DNA from: Geobacteraceae bacterium
GTDB taxonomy: Bacteria > Desulfobacterota > Desulfuromonadia > Geobacterales > Pseudopelobacteraceae
Reading direction: 5' to 3'
Assembly: GCA_025355965.1 (NCBI GenBank)
Contig: JANXYR010000050.1
Coordinates: forward strand, 1 to 54,327
DNA length: 54,327 nucleotides
Position 1 is the stretch's first letter. Every line of letters starts with the position of its first letter. The translations under genes were made by a program, and so were the position numbers. The notes under the pieces were generated by a model that saw only the letters and a list, made by a program, of their open reading frames with translations, did not search any database and had not been told where the DNA came from. Positions 35,559 through 43,308 of this stretch are shown in pieces.

Positions 35559-37841
35559 ATGCAGATGCGAAAATTAATTATGCCGTTTTGTTTACTGTCC
35601 ATGGCGGCAATGCTGTACGGTTGCGGCTCGTCCAGCAAATCTGGTGGATCGCTCAGCAGTGTGGCGACTGTTGGTGACACGGCTTGTGCGCAGTGCCATG
35701 CAGCTACAGCCGACCCATTGACGGGTGAAACATTCATTACCCAGTATCAGCGTTCGCTGCATGCCGAACTCGGCTGTGAAAGCTGTCATGGCGGTGGCGC
35801 CCAGCACAACGGTGTTGGCCCCTTTCCGTATGAGCTGACAAGCGAGGTGAGTGATGCCTCAAAGGCTGCGCGCTGTGCCCAGTGCCACGACGGTGTTACC
35901 ACGTTTAACGGCAAGGTTGCTCCGCTGAGCAGCTCGATCAATTTCTCTAACGGCAACCATGCCAATCCGTTCGGTGCTGAAGAAGCACACGAAGCCAAGT
36001 GTGCGCGCTGCCACTCCCACGAAGGATCGATACTCTACGGTAAGGAAGGTTTCACCGGCGATGCATCCATCATCAATAACACCTCATACCAACCGGTGCT
36101 GCCTAGGGATCCGGAAACCTTCAACGCCATCAAATGCGCCACCTGCCATGAGCATGGCGGTAACGTCCGTCAGACTAAAACCCGTGATGTCGCGGGTAAT
36201 GTCGTGACTTGGGATCCGGATGGCAACAAGGTGATCGGCCAGTTTGACCTCTGTACCAGCTGCCATACCATGAACACCAACGCCGGCAAGCAGATCGGCA
36301 GCGGCAACGTCCTGGCGATCGCTAATACCGCCGGTGGCTTCACCAATGTATCAACCGCGGCTTTCTATCACAATACCCGCTGGTTCCGTACCCTCCCCTC
36401 TACCCATGTTGATCAGGTTGCTTCCGGAACTACTGCCGCTGGCACAATCATTGAGGGTTATGTAATCCGCAAAAATCAAAAAAACCCCTGCTTCGAGTGC
36501 CACGGTCACGAGTTCAAGGCCAACACCCGTGCACTGGTTGACCATCCCGAGCGACCGCAGACAAATTTCACTGATTGGGCTCAATCAGCTCATGCCGGCA
36601 AACTGCTGAGCCAGAAACTTGCTGCTGCTGCGACTGTTCCTGCAGGTGGCGCGGCTCAAGTTGACGCCGTCATGAAGGCCGGTGTTTCTGAAACAAGTGG
36701 AGCTGCATGGTCACATTATAACTGGGATGCAACCTTCACGGCTGCAGGAGCCAGCGACCGCGGTGCCTGCCAGCGCTGTCATACCTCTACCGGTGCTTCC
36801 AACTTCATGAAAAATCCGGCCGGCTATGATTACGCCAACAACGATTTTACCCACTTGCAAAACTGGAAGAAAGGCACTGCTAAACTTGGAGTTGCAGGCA
36901 CGGCAACCACATCATCCGGACAGAACGAATTGCTCTATTGCTGGGGCTGCCACAGCAACGCCGGTGCAGGCAAGCTGTATACCCCAGGTGCACGTGTTGA
37001 GACCTACGCTGTTGCAACTACCGGTGATACGCCGGTTACCATTGCCTACCCCGACGTCGCCGGTTCCAACGTCTGCATGACCTGCCACCTTGGCCGTGAA
37101 GTTGGCGATACGATCAAGAACGACAATGACGCCGATGGCGTACGTGGTTTCGTTAACTCGCACTATCTGTCGGCCGGTGGTCAGCTGTTCGGTAAATCGG
37201 GTTACACCTATGCCGGCAAGGATTACACCAACCCGACTTTCTTTGCGCACGACAAGATCGGTACGGCAGCAGCACCAGGGACCGGCTCTAATGGCCCCTG
37301 TGTTGGTTGTCACATGACCAGTCCCAACAAACACAAGTTCACCAACGTCAGCAGCAACAGCTCAGGCGTTATTACCAAAATCACCACCAGCCTCTGCGCA
37401 ACCTGCCACACAGGTTCGTTTGCCATGACACCGGAAAAACTGACGGCAGAAGAGGAAGAGTACTCAGCAGCACTTGACGCGCTTGCTGCTGCGCTGCGAA
37501 CAAAGAACATCTACTTCAATAAAGGCGCCAATCCGTACTTCTTTACGGCACCTTATGTCGTAGGTGGCACAAACACAAGTTACACCGCCTGGTCCACACC
37601 ATACGGCTTGGCTCTATGGAAGGACGTTATGGGGGCAGCCTTCAACCTCAATCTGCTGGCCCACGATCCGGGTGGCTTCGCCCATAACCGTTTCTATTCC
37701 AAACGGCTGATCTGGGATTCCATCGACTTTATCGACGATGGCATTCTGAATAACTCGGTACCGACTACGCTGACTACGGTTCTGCCAGCCGGTCAAACCT
37801 TGACGGACGCCCAGACGTATCTGGGTGCAACCCGTCCGTAA
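35559..37841 (+). CDS. omcB: Outer-membrane dodecahaem lipoprotein cytochrome, OmcB-like
   Basis: A 760-residue protein with a lipoprotein signal (LYGC, lipidated Cys22) and twelve CXXCH motifs: CAQCH, CESCH, CAQCH, CARCH, CATCH, CTSCH, CFECH, CQRCH, CWGCH, CMTCH, CVGCH and CATCH. The length and haem count equal OmcB/OmcC, the outer-surface cytochromes used for Fe(III) and other extracellular acceptors. Haem-poor Gly/Thr/Ala-rich stretches lie between the motifs. AAGGAGG precedes the ATG at 35559. It is the last gene of the operon, followed by two hairpins. Confidence 0.88.
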
Positions 37842-39116: not shown

Positions 39117-40502
39117 CTATCCCAGCTTGTTCATTACCTCTACAAGTGCCGGAATATCGGCATCCTGCAGGGTGCGAAGATCGAGCAGGTACTGCCCCTT
39201 GTTGATCCTCCCCAACACCGGAGTATTGCATAGCCTGAAAGCCGAATCTATCTGCTGGGGAGACCAGCCTTCGACCGCAATTGCCATGAGGAATGTTGGC
39301 AAATCCAGCAGCGGCAGAGAGCCGCCACCAACCTGAGAATTCCCGGCAACAACCGTGAGGATAATTGAAGAAGGTATTTTCGGTCGAATCCGGCGGATGT
39401 AGGACGAGGCTTTTGCCTTCAGCGCTCCGGGCTGCACCGTCAACATGCGCAATGTAGGTATCTCTACCACCGCCTCCCTTTCGTCCCGGTACAGTCTCAA
39501 TGTCGCTTCAAGTGCAGCAAGTGTCAACTTGTCAATCCTGAGAGCTCTCAGAAGCTGTTCCTTTCTCAGTATGGAGATTATCTTCCGCTTTCCGAGTATG
39601 ATGCCTGCCTGCGGACCGCCGAGCATCTTGTCACCGCTACAGGTAATGATGTCAACGCCTGCCTTGACATACTCCTGTACAGGAATTTCGCCGGGTATAC
39701 CATATTTGGAGAGATCCAGCAGGGAACCACTGCCGATATCGGCCATTACCGGAATTCCCTTCTCCTTTCCGCACTGAACGAGTTGATCAATTGAAACCTC
39801 CGCCGTAAACCCTACCACCGAAAAATTGCTGGTATGAACCTTGAGAAACAGTGCAGTTTCATCGGAAATGGCAGCCTGATAGTCCTTTAGATGGGTGCGA
39901 TTTGTAGTTCCGACCTCTTTCAGTATTCCGCCACTCATTCTCATAACATCAGGTATTCTGAATGATCCTCCGATCTCGACCAGTTCACCCCGTGAAACCA
40001 CAACCTCTTTGCCGGCAGCCATCCCTGAAAGAGCCAGCAGCACTGCTGCAGCATTATTGTTTACGACAATTGCCGCTTCAGCCCCTGTCAACTCACACAG
40101 GAGTGATTCAACATGAGTATACCGTTCTCCGCGTGCACCTGTAGCCATGTCCATCTCCAGATTTGAGTAGCGCTCAGAAACCTCCAGTATCTGACGACAT
40201 GCCGATTTTGAAAGAAGTGAGCGCCCAAGATTGGTATGAATCACCACTCCGGTACCATTCACAACAGGGTGGAGACTGGGAGCAACGAGCTGCTCAAGTT
40301 CTTTTACGATCAGCCCGCACAGATGGTTCTCGTCGACCGCTGCCGGCAGCGTACCGTTTAGCGAGCCAATTCTGAGTGCTGCAAGGACGTTCCGTACAGC
40401 TGCAAGGACAGTCGGCCTTGGATGCGTTTCAAGCAGTGAAACTACTGGGGAAAGAGACAATACTTTATCAACCTTGGGGATTGAGCTGATGTTTTTTTTC
40501 AT
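39117..40502 (-). CDS. selA: L-seryl-tRNA(Sec) selenium transferase
   Basis: A 461-residue PLP enzyme that converts Ser-tRNA(Sec) to Sec-tRNA(Sec) with selenophosphate. It has the conserved VVNGTGVVIHTNLGRSLLS, ATGARGERYTHVE, the PLP lysine in SGDKMLGGPQAG (Lys292) and the C-terminal GRINKGQYLLDLR. Length and motifs are complete. It is divergent from the UGA-containing sbtA gene and within 2.4 kb of selC, so the selenocysteine machinery and its users are clustered. selB and selD are not in the window. GGAG lies upstream of the ATG. Confidence 0.97.
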   Translation of the reverse strand: MKKNISSIPKVDKVLSLSPVVSLLETHPRPTVLAAVRNVLAALRIGSLNGTLPAAVDENHLCGLIVKELEQLVAPSLHPVVNGTGVVIHTNLGRSLLSKSACRQILEVSERYSNLEMDMATGARGERYTHVESLLCELTGAEAAIVVNNNAAAVLLALSGMAAGKEVVVSRGELVEIGGSFRIPDVMRMSGGILKEVGTTNRTHLKDYQAAISDETALFLKVHTSNFSVVGFTAEVSIDQLVQCGKEKGIPVMADIGSGSLLDLSKYGIPGEIPVQEYVKAGVDIITCSGDKMLGGPQAGIILGKRKIISILRKEQLLRALRIDKLTLAALEATLRLYRDEREAVVEIPTLRMLTVQPGALKAKASSYIRRIRPKIPSSIILTVVAGNSQVGGGSLPLLDLPTFLMAIAVEGWSPQQIDSAFRLCNTPVLGRINKGQYLLDLRTLQDADIPALVEVMNKLG

Positions 40503-40779: not shown

Positions 40780-41088
40780 ATGGACAAGGATCAGTTGAAG
40801 AGTTTTGTGGCAGGGCTTGGTATTGCCAGCTTGGTTGCAGGTGTTTCGATTGCTGCACCTGCTGGCGCGGCTCAAAGTGGTTGAGGTGGCGGAGCGGGCG
40901 CCGGGAGCGCCCCTAAGGACAAGGCTGAAGTGACTGAGAAGGCCGTGGAAAAGGTTGAGAAGAAGGATCTCAAAAAGGCAAAAAAAGTAAAAAAAGACGC
41001 TAAGAAAGATGCTGTAAAGGATCAGAAGGAAGGCGAGAAGCCTAAAGAGACGCCCGGTAAAAGTGGTTGAGGCGGTTCATCCAAATAG
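40780..41088 (+). CDS. sbtA: SbtA-like selenocysteine-containing RiPP precursor (two in-frame UGA codons)
   Basis: A 102-residue gene that normal ORF calling misses because codons 35 (TGA, 40882-40884) and 97 (TGA, 41068-41070) are read as stops. Both sit in the same context, Ser-Gly-U-Gly-Gly, coded AGT GGT TGA GG(T/C) GG(C/T). The frame is otherwise open from an ATG with a good ribosome site (AAAGGTGG) to TAG at 41086. Residues 1-34 form a leader with DKDQLKSF and a hydrophobic AGLGIASLVAGVSIAAP stretch. Residues 46-94 are a Lys/Glu-rich linker. selA is divergent, and the radical SAM maturase and tRNA-Sec genes lie downstream. This fits the predicted SbtA/SbtM thio(seleno)oxazole or 'selenobiotic' RiPP family. 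The modification and bioactivity are inferred. A pseudogene is unlikely given the repeated motif and context. Confidence 0.9.
40896..40912 (+). promoter_or_regulatory. Candidate bacterial SECIS for the first sbtA UGA
   Basis: GGGCGC (40896-40901) pairs perfectly with GCGCCC (40907-40912) around the loop CGGGA. The loop starts 18 nt after the UGA, within the usual bacterial SECIS distance, and has G in its second position, where SelB needs an apical guanine. Confidence 0.65.
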
Positions 41089-41100
41089 TGCGGTCGCGCT
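41087..41100 (+). promoter_or_regulatory. Candidate bacterial SECIS for the second sbtA UGA
   Basis: AGTGC (41087-41091) pairs with GCGCT (41096-41100), with one G-U pair, around a GGTC loop. The loop starts 22 nt after the UGA at 41068-41070 and resembles the GGUC apical loop of E. coli fdhF. The hairpin lies partly beyond the sbtA stop codon. Confidence 0.6.
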
Positions 41101-41238
41101 AACAGCATCCAGAAGGTACTTGATCATAGAGAAGATGTCCGATAATATCATGTCATGAATAGCTTGTCCGAAATTTTTCCTATCTGCCGAACAATTCTTG
41201 GCATCATGCTATGGAAACGTATTGCAGAGGGAAGTGAC

Positions 41239-42729
41239 ATGAATCCGGTCAGCTTCCCGGAATTTTTGGAACATCAGGGTGGGCTCGGAATACCACCGTT
41301 TTTGTCCGGGCTCGCCCACGTTGAATTATCGCGCCACAAAGCCATCACTGCAGAAAATGCACCCCTCGGAATAAATTCATTCAGCCTCAATCCTACTCTG
41401 CATATTACCCCTGTCAGATGGAAAAATCTGGCTCCTCTGTTCGTGCGAGCAAAGAAGCGGGACATAGACAAGGTCGTTCCCGGCAATGAAACCATCATCA
41501 TCTGGTGTTTGCCAGATAATGGAAAGCTAATGATCCGGGCTACGGAACCGGGTGATTTGCTGGCCATCAAACTGCTGGCCGAAGACATTGATCCCCTGGA
41601 TGCGGCCTGTGAGGCGGGAGTCCCGGTTGGGATTATCGATGCTGTTATGCGTGAGGCCATCTGGAAGGGACTGGTACTCTCGCCGCCTTCAATGCTTTGC
41701 CGCGAACAGGATATTACCGGCCCGTCTCCACGTGAGGACTTAATAGCGGCCGAGGTATTTTCCTTGCAATGGCACCTGACCCAGGAGTGTGACCTGCATT
41801 GCCGGCACTGCTATGACCGCTCAAGCCGCCGGGCATTTCCGTTCGAGCGTGCTCTCACCCTGCTCGATGAACTGCGCGCCTTTTGTCGCAGCCGGTTCAT
41901 TCGTGGACAAGTGTCCCTGTCTGGCGGAAATCCTTTGCTATACCCACAATTTCTGGATCTCTACCGTGCCGCCGCAGAGCGGGATTTCATGATCGCCATC
42001 CTAGGCAACGCCAGTGACCGTGCCACTATTGAAAAACTCGTGGACATACGGATGCCGGTCTATTATCAGGTCAGCCTGGAAGGGTTGGAACAGCATAACG
42101 ATGAAATTCGCGGGGCGGGGAATTATCGTCGCACGGTGGATTTCCTGAGGACTCTCACGGAAATGGGTGTGCCAAACATGGTAATGTTAACCCTGACCCG
42201 GCACAATTTGGGGCAGGTTATTCCTCTGGCAGAAAAGCTGGAAGGCATTACGGGTGGGCTGACCTTCAACCGCCTTGCATTGTTTGGAGAGGGCGCTTCT
42301 CTGGAATTGCCGACCCCCGATGAATACCGGGAGTTTCTCGAAGCATATGCATCGGCCCTGGACAGCCACCCGGTTTTGACCCTCAAGGACAGCCTGCTAA
42401 ACACAATATTTGAGCGGGACAACAGTGGGCTGTTCGGTGGATGTGCCGGCTATGGCTGCGGAGCAGCCTTCAATTTTGTTTCGATTCTTTCTGACGGCGA
42501 GGTGCATGCCTGCCGCAAGTTTCCTTCGCCCATCGGTAACATCCTCATCAACAGCCTGGAAGATGTGTACGCCTCCAAGGCTGCCGCTCGCTATCGCTCT
42601 GGCAGCGACGCCTGTTCCGGTTGTTCTCTGAATGCGGTATGCCGCGGCTGTCCGGCTGTTACCGCCAGTCTCGGGCTCGACCCATTTACTGATAAGGATC
42701 CATATTGCTTCAGACACCGGATTAGTTAA
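41239..42729 (+). CDS. sbtM: SbtM-like radical SAM/SPASM peptide maturase
   Basis: A 496-residue radical SAM enzyme. The N-terminal ~175 residues form a variable, probably peptide-binding region. The cluster motif CDLHCRHC (Cys184, Cys188, Cys191; CX3CX2C) is followed by SLSGGNPLLYPQF and VSLEGLEQHNDEIRG. The C-terminal SPASM region has cysteines in GCAGYGCGAAF, DGEVHACRKFPSPIGN, CSGCSLNAVCRGCP and PYCF, for auxiliary Fe-S clusters. It lies 150 bp downstream of the UGA-containing precursor and fits the SbtM maturase family. I chose the ATG at 41239 because GAGGGA precedes it; 41155 is an alternative. The modification chemistry is not shown by the sequence. Confidence 0.87.
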   Translation: MNPVSFPEFLEHQGGLGIPPFLSGLAHVELSRHKAITAENAPLGINSFSLNPTLHITPVRWKNLAPLFVRAKKRDIDKVVPGNETIIIWCLPDNGKLMIRATEPGDLLAIKLLAEDIDPLDAACEAGVPVGIIDAVMREAIWKGLVLSPPSMLCREQDITGPSPREDLIAAEVFSLQWHLTQECDLHCRHCYDRSSRRAFPFERALTLLDELRAFCRSRFIRGQVSLSGGNPLLYPQFLDLYRAAAERDFMIAILGNASDRATIEKLVDIRMPVYYQVSLEGLEQHNDEIRGAGNYRRTVDFLRTLTEMGVPNMVMLTLTRHNLGQVIPLAEKLEGITGGLTFNRLALFGEGASLELPTPDEYREFLEAYASALDSHPVLTLKDSLLNTIFERDNSGLFGGCAGYGCGAAFNFVSILSDGEVHACRKFPSPIGNILINSLEDVYASKAAARYRSGSDACSGCSLNAVCRGCPAVTASLGLDPFTDKDPYCFRHRIS

Positions 42730-42850: not shown

Positions 42851-42948
42851 GGAAGTACTTCAGTCGCTGGCGGGCTGCCCGGTCTTCAAAACCGGTGGAG
42901 GGGGTGAGAAACTTCCTCGGTGGGTTCGATTCCCATGTACTTCCGCCA
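42851..42948 (+). tRNA. selC: tRNA-Sec (anticodon UCA)
   Basis: An 8-bp acceptor stem, GGAAGTAC (42851-42858) with GTACTTCC (42937-42944), discriminator G and encoded CCA. The anticodon loop CTTCAAA (42884-42890) carries UCA at 42886-42888. There is a long variable arm (about 42896-42918) and the T-loop TTCGATT. The 98-nt length including CCA, the long 8-bp acceptor stem and the UCA anticodon identify tRNA-Sec rather than tRNA-Ser or Leu. Confidence 0.96.
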
Positions 42949-43134: not shown

Positions 43135-43308
43135 ATGAAAGAAATTTTGATAATGTTGGCAATAATTGTCGCCTGGTTTGTGTTGCAAAAATATATCCTC
43201 CCAGCTTTTGGTGTTCGTACCTGATTGTCAAATACTTGTGACCTCGGGGACCGGGGTACAAAAAATATTGATTCAAAGATAGAGCCAAAAGAGCAGATTA
43301 AGCCGTAA
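43135..43308 (+). CDS. Candidate small membrane-anchored selenoprotein with one in-frame UGA
   Basis: A 57-residue reading frame from an ATG with AGAGGAGAAG upstream to TAA at 43306-43308, interrupted only by TGA at 43222-43224 (codon 30). Residues 1-24 form a hydrophobic helix (EILIMLAIIVAWFVLQKYI), so the protein is membrane anchored. The core LPAFGVRT-U-LSNTC puts the putative Sec five residues before a Cys, a likely redox pair. A short polar tail ends QIKP. Just after the UGA lies a strong hairpin (43237-43260). It is 186 bp downstream of tRNA-Sec. The alternative is a 29-residue peptide ending at UGA. I recall Cys-type small Geobacter proteins with a TCxSxxC motif but cannot verify them. 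Confidence 0.75.
43237..43260 (+). promoter_or_regulatory. Candidate SECIS of the small selenoprotein gene
   Basis: ACCTCGG (43241-43247) pairs with CCGGGGT (43251-43257), 7 bp with one G-U, around a GGA loop. TGT and ACA extend it after one bulged G. The loop is 24-26 nt after the UGA and G-rich, as expected for SelB recognition. Confidence 0.65.

Follow-up and report, generated by a model that had tools for sequence, protein, structure and literature searches.

A two-UGA SbtA precursor gene next to the SbtM maturase gene in a Geobacteraceae contig, with predicted selenocysteine-insertion hairpins that appear to be written into the peptide repeat

Does a short reading frame that is interrupted by two UGA codons, and that lies just upstream of a radical S-adenosylmethionine (SAM) enzyme gene, encode the precursor of a selenocysteine-containing peptide? 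The question is raised by contig JANXYR010000050.1 of a Geobacteraceae bacterium (GenBank assembly GCA_025355965.1), a stretch of 54,327 nucleotides (nt) that is referred to here as the window, in which an earlier reading of the letters alone (the original prediction) had proposed a hidden SbtA-like precursor beside its maturase. We consider it very probable that the locus comprises an SbtA precursor gene and an SbtM maturase gene, that the UGAs are recoded to selenocysteine (Sec, U) via hairpins, and that Sec is converted to (seleno)oxazole-type rings. The observed basis for this reading is the frame itself, the family membership of both genes, the presence of tRNA-Sec, selA, selB and selD genes, the conservation of the UGAs and the codons that follow them, and compensatory changes in the hairpins of relatives. 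The features that carry the argument are as follows.

40780..41088, forward strand: sbtA, precursor gene (TIGR04081 match over residues 1-27; translation)
40780..40872, forward strand: signal-peptide-like leader of SbtA with hydrophobic core and AxA-type end, about residues 1-31 (TIGR04081 residues 1-27; leader survey; end point set by eye)
40882..40884, forward strand: first UGA, U35, in SG-U-GG (translation; retained in related loci L044-L046)
40896..40912, forward strand: predicted selenocysteine insertion sequence (SECIS) hairpin 1, within the coding region and translated as part of GAGSA (stem-loop; covariation in relatives)
40897..40911, forward strand: GAGSA codons, a repeat motif apparently imposed by the hairpin (codon-anchored pairing analysis)
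41068..41070, forward strand: second UGA, U97, in SG-U-GG, six codons 5′ of the stop (translation; retained in L044-L046)
41086..41101, forward strand: predicted SECIS hairpin 2, whose 5′ arm starts with the stop TAG and whose loop lies beyond it (stem-loop)
41155..42729, forward strand: sbtM, radical SAM/SPASM maturase of 524 amino acids (TIGR04082; PF04055, PF13186)

As had been proposed, a single forward-strand frame runs from 40780 to 41088 with no interruption except two in-frame TGA codons, both in a Ser-Gly-U-Gly-Gly context, before a TAG stop at 41086-41088; with both TGAs translated as U, the product has 102 residues. Its leader scored 39.8 bits against TIGR04081 (42.2 bits in the genome search; curated cut-off 30.5), and the maturase gene, which begins after a spacing of 66 bases, scored 688.7 bits against TIGR04082 (cut-off 350) with profile positions 1-516 of 516 covered. 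Homology thus places both window genes above the curated cut-offs of the family named in the original prediction and gives no sign of a maturase from an unrelated radical SAM family. Among the fetched relatives, the three whose SbtM is most similar (L044, L045 and L046) retain both UGAs, and over the five codons after U97 each shows at most one synonymous and no replacement difference from the window. We predict that U35 and U97 are decoded as selenocysteine.

The radical SAM/SPASM gene expected 3′ of the precursor is likewise in place at 41155-42729. Its CX3CX2C motif (C212, C216 and C219) is invariant across 58 aligned sequences including that of the window, as are the SPASM-region cysteines C430, C435, C453, C487, C490, C496 and C499, with C518 nearly so. 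The window enzyme shares its Cys motifs and 59% identity over 511 residues with SbtM of Trichlorobacter (Geobacter) lovleyi (P0102, NCBI-named) and differs from it in an N-terminus that, with the start codon chosen here, extends 14 residues further. It is this T. lovleyi enzyme that Lewis et al. (2021) reportedly studied. The radical SAM plus SPASM architecture is also common to the SkfB, mycofactocin and ACGX maturases, but window SbtM falls far under the cut-offs of those models (e.g., 158 versus 400 for ACGX).

The SbtA/SbtM family is already known, two-Sec members included, and the window pair is another member of it. Table 1 of a 2026 review (PMC13188914) has a row "Selenobacteriocin, TIGR04081, SGUG, 2 Sec" (WP_074187118.1, source Lewis et al. 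2021), which the window copy resembles in its leader, SGUG, two Sec and adjacent SbtM and from which it has no essential difference; relatives reach four motif Sec or have an all-Cys paralogue (both in L068). What is added here is that the tail of the repeat tracks the hairpin, a dual coding for which no earlier description was found in our literature searches or in that table. A literature search on SbtA/SbtM gave only unrelated homonyms among the best 20 of 254 matches listed, and "selenobiotic" gave no match. Contrary to the expectation that standard annotation would skip the precursor, the gene is not unknown to databases but truncated in them. Of 12 database proteins near the precursor, three have the designation "radical SAM modification target selenobiotic family peptide", and of the six that were inspected (P0002-P0004, P0006, P0011 and P0013) four stop at the first UGA and two have W at the UGA sites.

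The comparison with relatives draws on a survey of 395 genomes of the phylum, 39 of which have SbtM above the cut-off, and on 51 fetched SbtM loci (13 + 38), some of them near-duplicates. A leader profile search located a precursor in the fetched stretch of 45 of these 51 loci; among the six others, the contig of L051 begins inside SbtM, none was found in L073, and L091 holds a leaderless precursor piece at a contig end. Altogether, 51 distinct precursors including that of the window were compared (the precursors of L094-L096 and the L091 piece enter no count), with 0 U in 3, 1 in 4, 2 in 23, 3 in 18 and 4 in 3, where the counts for L079 and L083 include U outside the motif. Hence 48 of the 51 contain U, nearly always within the motif.

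We asked of each UGA whether a hairpin with the properties of a bacterial SECIS (bSECIS) follows it, the published limits being an apical loop that is small, has a G near its start and lies 16-37 nt 3′ of the UGA, a stem of at least 4 bp (PMC13188914, legend to Fig. 2) and an energy limit of -7.5 (same source). Hairpin 1 (GGGCGC-CGGGA-GCGCCC; 6-bp stem, loop 17 nt past the UGA, -11.1 kcal/mol) lies within all of these limits; hairpin 2 (TAGTGC-GGTC-GCGCTA) has its loop 21 nt past the UGA and -6.1 kcal/mol. Across the family, 111 of 117 UGA sites were scored, five in L079 and one in L083 being excluded as outside the motif. A stem-loop score of at least 14 was reached at 106 of the 111, compared to 12.5% of dinucleotide shuffles, and the loop fell 17-22 nt 3′ of the UGA in 97. 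When L057 U77 and L058 U78, which may be true stops, were additionally set aside, 91 of 109 UGA sites lay within the bSECIS limits. For control codons from these genes the figure was 279 of 2479, and for Cys sites 4 of 22, two of these four hits being the hairpin of a neighbouring UGA. (Seven lipobox Cys were kept out of the 22; one of them, in L055, precedes the motif of the next Sec.) Another of the four hits, L056 C95 in the last SbtA repeat, is a Cys site that keeps a SECIS-like hairpin 20 nt on, beyond the stop, and perhaps marks a recent Sec-to-Cys change.

The family hairpins share the early-G small loop, the 16-37 nt spacing and the stem of at least 4 bp with the bacterial SECIS consensus as given in PMC13188914; the terminal copies differ in their position relative to the stop codon. 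Of 37 terminal UGA sites (again without L057 U77 and L058 U78), 30 lie within all limits, 35 have the loop beyond the stop codon, and in 21, the window included, the stop codon is entirely inside the 5′ arm. Some UGAs are closely paired, 15 nt apart in L067, L068, L070 and L082 and 9 nt apart in L090. In L067, L070, L082 and L090 both paired UGAs share one best hairpin, 26-35 nt from the first UGA, and a single predicted SECIS may serve two close UGA codons; the close pair of L068 has a separate hairpin, which encloses the second UGA.

Within the repeats, the hairpin coincides with a peptide motif, GA(G/V)S(A/T), which is present after 66 of the 72 internal Sec sites but after none of 39 terminal sites (fewer than 9 residues to the stop; L057 U77 and L058 U78 included) and none of the 22 Cys sites (repeated peptides entered once; the long L079 frame trimmed to 98 residues). 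For the pairing analysis, 62 motif stretches were chosen by the five-residue peptide pattern alone, with no other U between and with pairing playing no part in the choice, and five stem pairs were read, joining codon 1 with codon 5 and codon 2 with codon 4. The silent wobble base of codon 1 and the leading base of codon 5 formed U-A 33 times, C-G 27 times and U-G twice, with 0 mismatches; codon 5 encoded Thr in each of the 33 motifs with U-A and Ala or Val in the remaining 29, both U-G cases being Ala. The full five-pair stem was present in 59 of the 62 motifs, compared to a mean of 9.0 and a maximum of 19 in 2000 draws of a synonymous null with the family's codon usage. In the alignment of the 62 motifs (58 distinct), 97.4% of cells were paired, versus 24-50% when the partner was slid, and 73 cells were changed on both sides of the stem. 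Read most simply, GA(G/V)S(A/T) would be the footprint of the SECIS, a translated hairpin and not a peptide feature, and the peptide core under selection, (S/G)(G/S)U(G/S)G, would then span only about five residues.

We infer that in this cell a likely SECIS hairpin after each UGA would direct selenocysteine insertion, that SbtM would oxidise each Sec in SGUGG to a (seleno)oxazole-type ring, and that the modified peptide would leave via its signal-like leader. The repeating module would then be an in-frame UGA plus hairpin of about 50 nt, the final unit in most sbtA genes keeping its hairpin beyond the stop codon. A 2024 review (PMC11002830) describes the action of an SbtM (WP_083768621) in vitro on Cys and SeCys peptides, with a loss of four hydrogens, a nuclear magnetic resonance analysis identifying the Cys-peptide product as a thiooxazole, and a SECIS element directly 3′ of the precursor TGA. 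The window SbtM likely makes a (seleno)oxazole-type ring on the Sec of SGUGG.

Several observations weigh against this reading. Hairpin 2, at -6.1, is outside the -7.5 limit while lying within all the others, and 17 further UGA sites of the 109 are also outside this limit or have no hairpin. Moreover, the two window hairpins folded singly (49-nt stretches) were no better than dinucleotide shuffles (z of +0.82 and +0.90), so that the predicted hairpins do follow both UGAs but neither beats shuffles when folded alone, and the hairpin case rests on the comparison with relatives. Six internal U sites of the 72 have no motif (two in L079, one each in L088 and L089, and two in L090), and the Fisher test on the motif distribution (p = 1.5e-15) overstates independence because of shared ancestry; the Cys controls and the past-stop hairpins are evidence independent of such ancestry-inflated p-values. 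In genomes G088, G339 and G376 (L075, L080 and L076), SbtA is not linked to SbtM and lies on another contig. Two metagenome proteins, P0002 and P0003, carry Trp at the Sec sites. Finally, SbtM showed no association with selA in the phylum (37 of 39 genomes versus 318 of 356, p = 0.40), a co-occurrence that fails to reach significance because nearly all phylum genomes carry selA.

How far do these points favour other explanations? The shuffle result, together with the database peptides that end at the first UGA, accords with a view of the UGAs as ordinary stops in a gene that makes a 34-residue peptide, the rest being non-coding or a decayed gene. We nevertheless judge this exceedingly unlikely, given that UGA recurs in 48 of 51 precursors and nearly always in the motif, that the five codons after U97 have no replacement change relative to L044, L045 and L046, that the L068 paralogue has Cys at the motif, and that the hairpins covary among relatives. 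Decoding of UGA as tryptophan would account for W in P0002 and P0003, as well as in P0135, a match to the unrelated small gene described below; yet W precisely at the UGA of two unrelated genes is the expected outcome of gene calling under genetic code 4, which is probably what these entries reflect, and with selA, selB, selD and tRNA-Sec in the genome and hairpins at SECIS spacing we give this alternative next to no credence. A different objection accepts recoding and holds that SbtM or a protease reads GA(G/V)S(A/T) as peptide, the hairpin being merely a by-product. In favour of this, the motif is common and directly borders the core, but the choice of Thr or Ala/Val as fifth residue tracks a silent base of codon 1, the stem is complete far more often than in any synonymous draw, and the motif is missing at terminal Sec and at Cys sites while terminal hairpins persist beyond the stop; we regard a peptide signal as very unlikely. 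Recoding via SECIS hairpins that are translated within the repeat remains our preferred reading.

Where the modified SbtA goes is a separate question, on which a competing view deserves more weight. Simple pattern searches gave a lipobox-like end in 13 of 51 leaders and an AxA-like stretch in 20 of 51, some AxA hits lying within the hydrophobic part, and we infer from the leaders that modified SbtA would be exported by the general secretory route, as a lipoprotein in some species. No exporter or peptidase gene recurring beside SbtM was seen in 49 loci, and a search of the same loci for a third conserved gene (frames of at least 100 codons, BLASTP E 1e-15) gave no cluster in more than 8, SbtM antisense frames aside. 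The lack of a recurrent exporter or peptidase, together with the signal-like leaders, speaks against presuming a diffusing bacteriocin or free natural product. On the competing view, the SbtA/SbtM pair would yield a selenopeptide that is periplasmic or anchored in the envelope, perhaps binds metal or is redox-active, and carries some other modification of Sec. The signal-like leaders, the few shared neighbours, and a mature SbtA that is strongly charged and has several Sec all fit such a product, but the thiooxazole formed in vitro from a Cys peptide by an SbtM, as described in PMC11002830, speaks for ring formation; we find this alternative possible, though doubtful, and retain (seleno)oxazole-type rings as the preferred outcome.

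Some relatives depart from the window pattern. In L068 (genome G202; reverse strand, starts 427 and 851), a four-Sec SbtA stands beside the all-Cys paralogue, which has four SGCGG, no UGA and no GAGS tail; homologues of the precursor thus carry either U or Cys at the motif, and in L068 one SbtM would face both Cys and Sec substrates in the same cell. In L085 and L087 (G029 and G181), the SbtA-like precursor contains numerous Cys repeats, and its only Sec stands at the extreme end, in SGUGK(K).

The locus also contains part of the Sec machinery, arranged as the original prediction described, with selA divergent and selC 3′ of the maturase gene.

39117..40502, reverse strand: selA, divergent neighbour (TIGR00474, 600.5 bits)
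42851..42948, forward strand: selC, tRNA-Sec (ARAGORN; Rfam RF01852, 71.9 bits)

The selB and selD genes are present in the genome, away from the sbtA locus. The linkage of selA and selC was considered as part of the SbtA/SbtM system and ruled out, the adjacency being local and no feature of the family: selA lies beside sbtA in just one of the 51 fetched loci, L044 (with flanks of at most 5 kb, in part shortened by contig ends), and a tRNA-Sec lies near sbtA in 1 of 42 loci scanned (L044 again; many with 1.5-kb flanks).

Behind selC lies a second hidden gene, which in our view brings more novelty than the rest of the locus.

43135..43308, forward strand: likely selenoprotein gene of 57 codons with TGA at codon 30, 43222-43224 (homologue searches; predicted SECIS at about 43241-43257)

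Its product, MKEILIMLAIIVAWFVLQKYILPAFGVRT-U-LSNTCDLGDRGTKNIDSKIEPKEQIKP, has one predicted membrane helix (by eye). Matches were found in 44 of 58 relatives, where every listed match has an internal TGA except the weakest, G435:C402 (E 0.006), which has TAG, and in 165 of the 395 phylum genomes, where all matches listed have TGA except that in G228, which ends before the site; in the best-scoring loci of both searches the site is TGA in 58 of 58 (57 distinct sequences). The protein encoded in the window had no NCBIfam match at E up to 10 and no Pfam match exceeding the cut-off (best MWFE, 13.1 versus 27); among 18 aligned members, two weakly matched ATP synthase subunit B of NCBIfam (E 0.038) and the others none. 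A search of 5.8 billion proteins, which requires shared five-residue words, gave one match, P0135, with W at the site, and no Cys form was seen in it. Trp placed precisely on UGA codons, as in P0002 and P0003 for one gene and in P0135 for an unrelated one, is a possible route to selenoproteins in metagenome collections.

A six-pair stem 23 nt from the UGA was present in 41 of the 57 distinct small-gene sequences, compared to 6.5 under a synonymous null (maximum 14 in 500 draws), and 40 of the 58 loci lie within the bSECIS limits; the protein tail varies together with the stem (DLGDRG, TPAERE, APEDRE, RVEDRS). Genomes carrying the small gene have selA more often than those without it (158 of 165 versus 197 of 230, p = 0.0011, the overlap of the lists being read by hand); no selA was seen in seven carriers, of which G069 and G272 are 98-99% complete. 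The gene showed no association with SbtM (19 of 39 versus 146 of 356, p = 0.39), and its neighbours differ between loci, the most widespread cluster occurring in at most 12 of 58. The family has no row in Table 1 of PMC13188914, and no description of it was found in our literature searches. We think it likely that this selC locus has two UGA-recoded genes: sbtA, composed of self-contained UGA-plus-SECIS cassettes that write most of its repeat, and a small gene that founds a selenoprotein family, as yet unnamed and distributed across the phylum, with one membrane helix (GVxT-U-[ML]S..C), with Sec and never Cys in the checked copies and a tail written by the SECIS. Upstream of the whole locus, window positions 35559-37841 (forward strand) encode a secreted protein of 760 residues rich in CXXCH, probably a multihaem cytochrome (by eye).

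The window thus contributes a new member to a small and chemically odd family of ribosomally synthesized and post-translationally modified peptides. Furthermore, the comparison separates the residues that are likely conserved for the peptide, about five around Sec, from the GA(G/V)S(A/T) tail, likely conserved for the RNA, a split that bears on the design of SbtM substrates and on motif-based mining. The more than 100 predicted bacterial SECIS hairpins of the family, in and beyond the frame and with built-in Cys controls, form a natural series. The small gene suggests that small Sec proteins with no Cys homologue found so far can escape methods that pair Sec with Cys.

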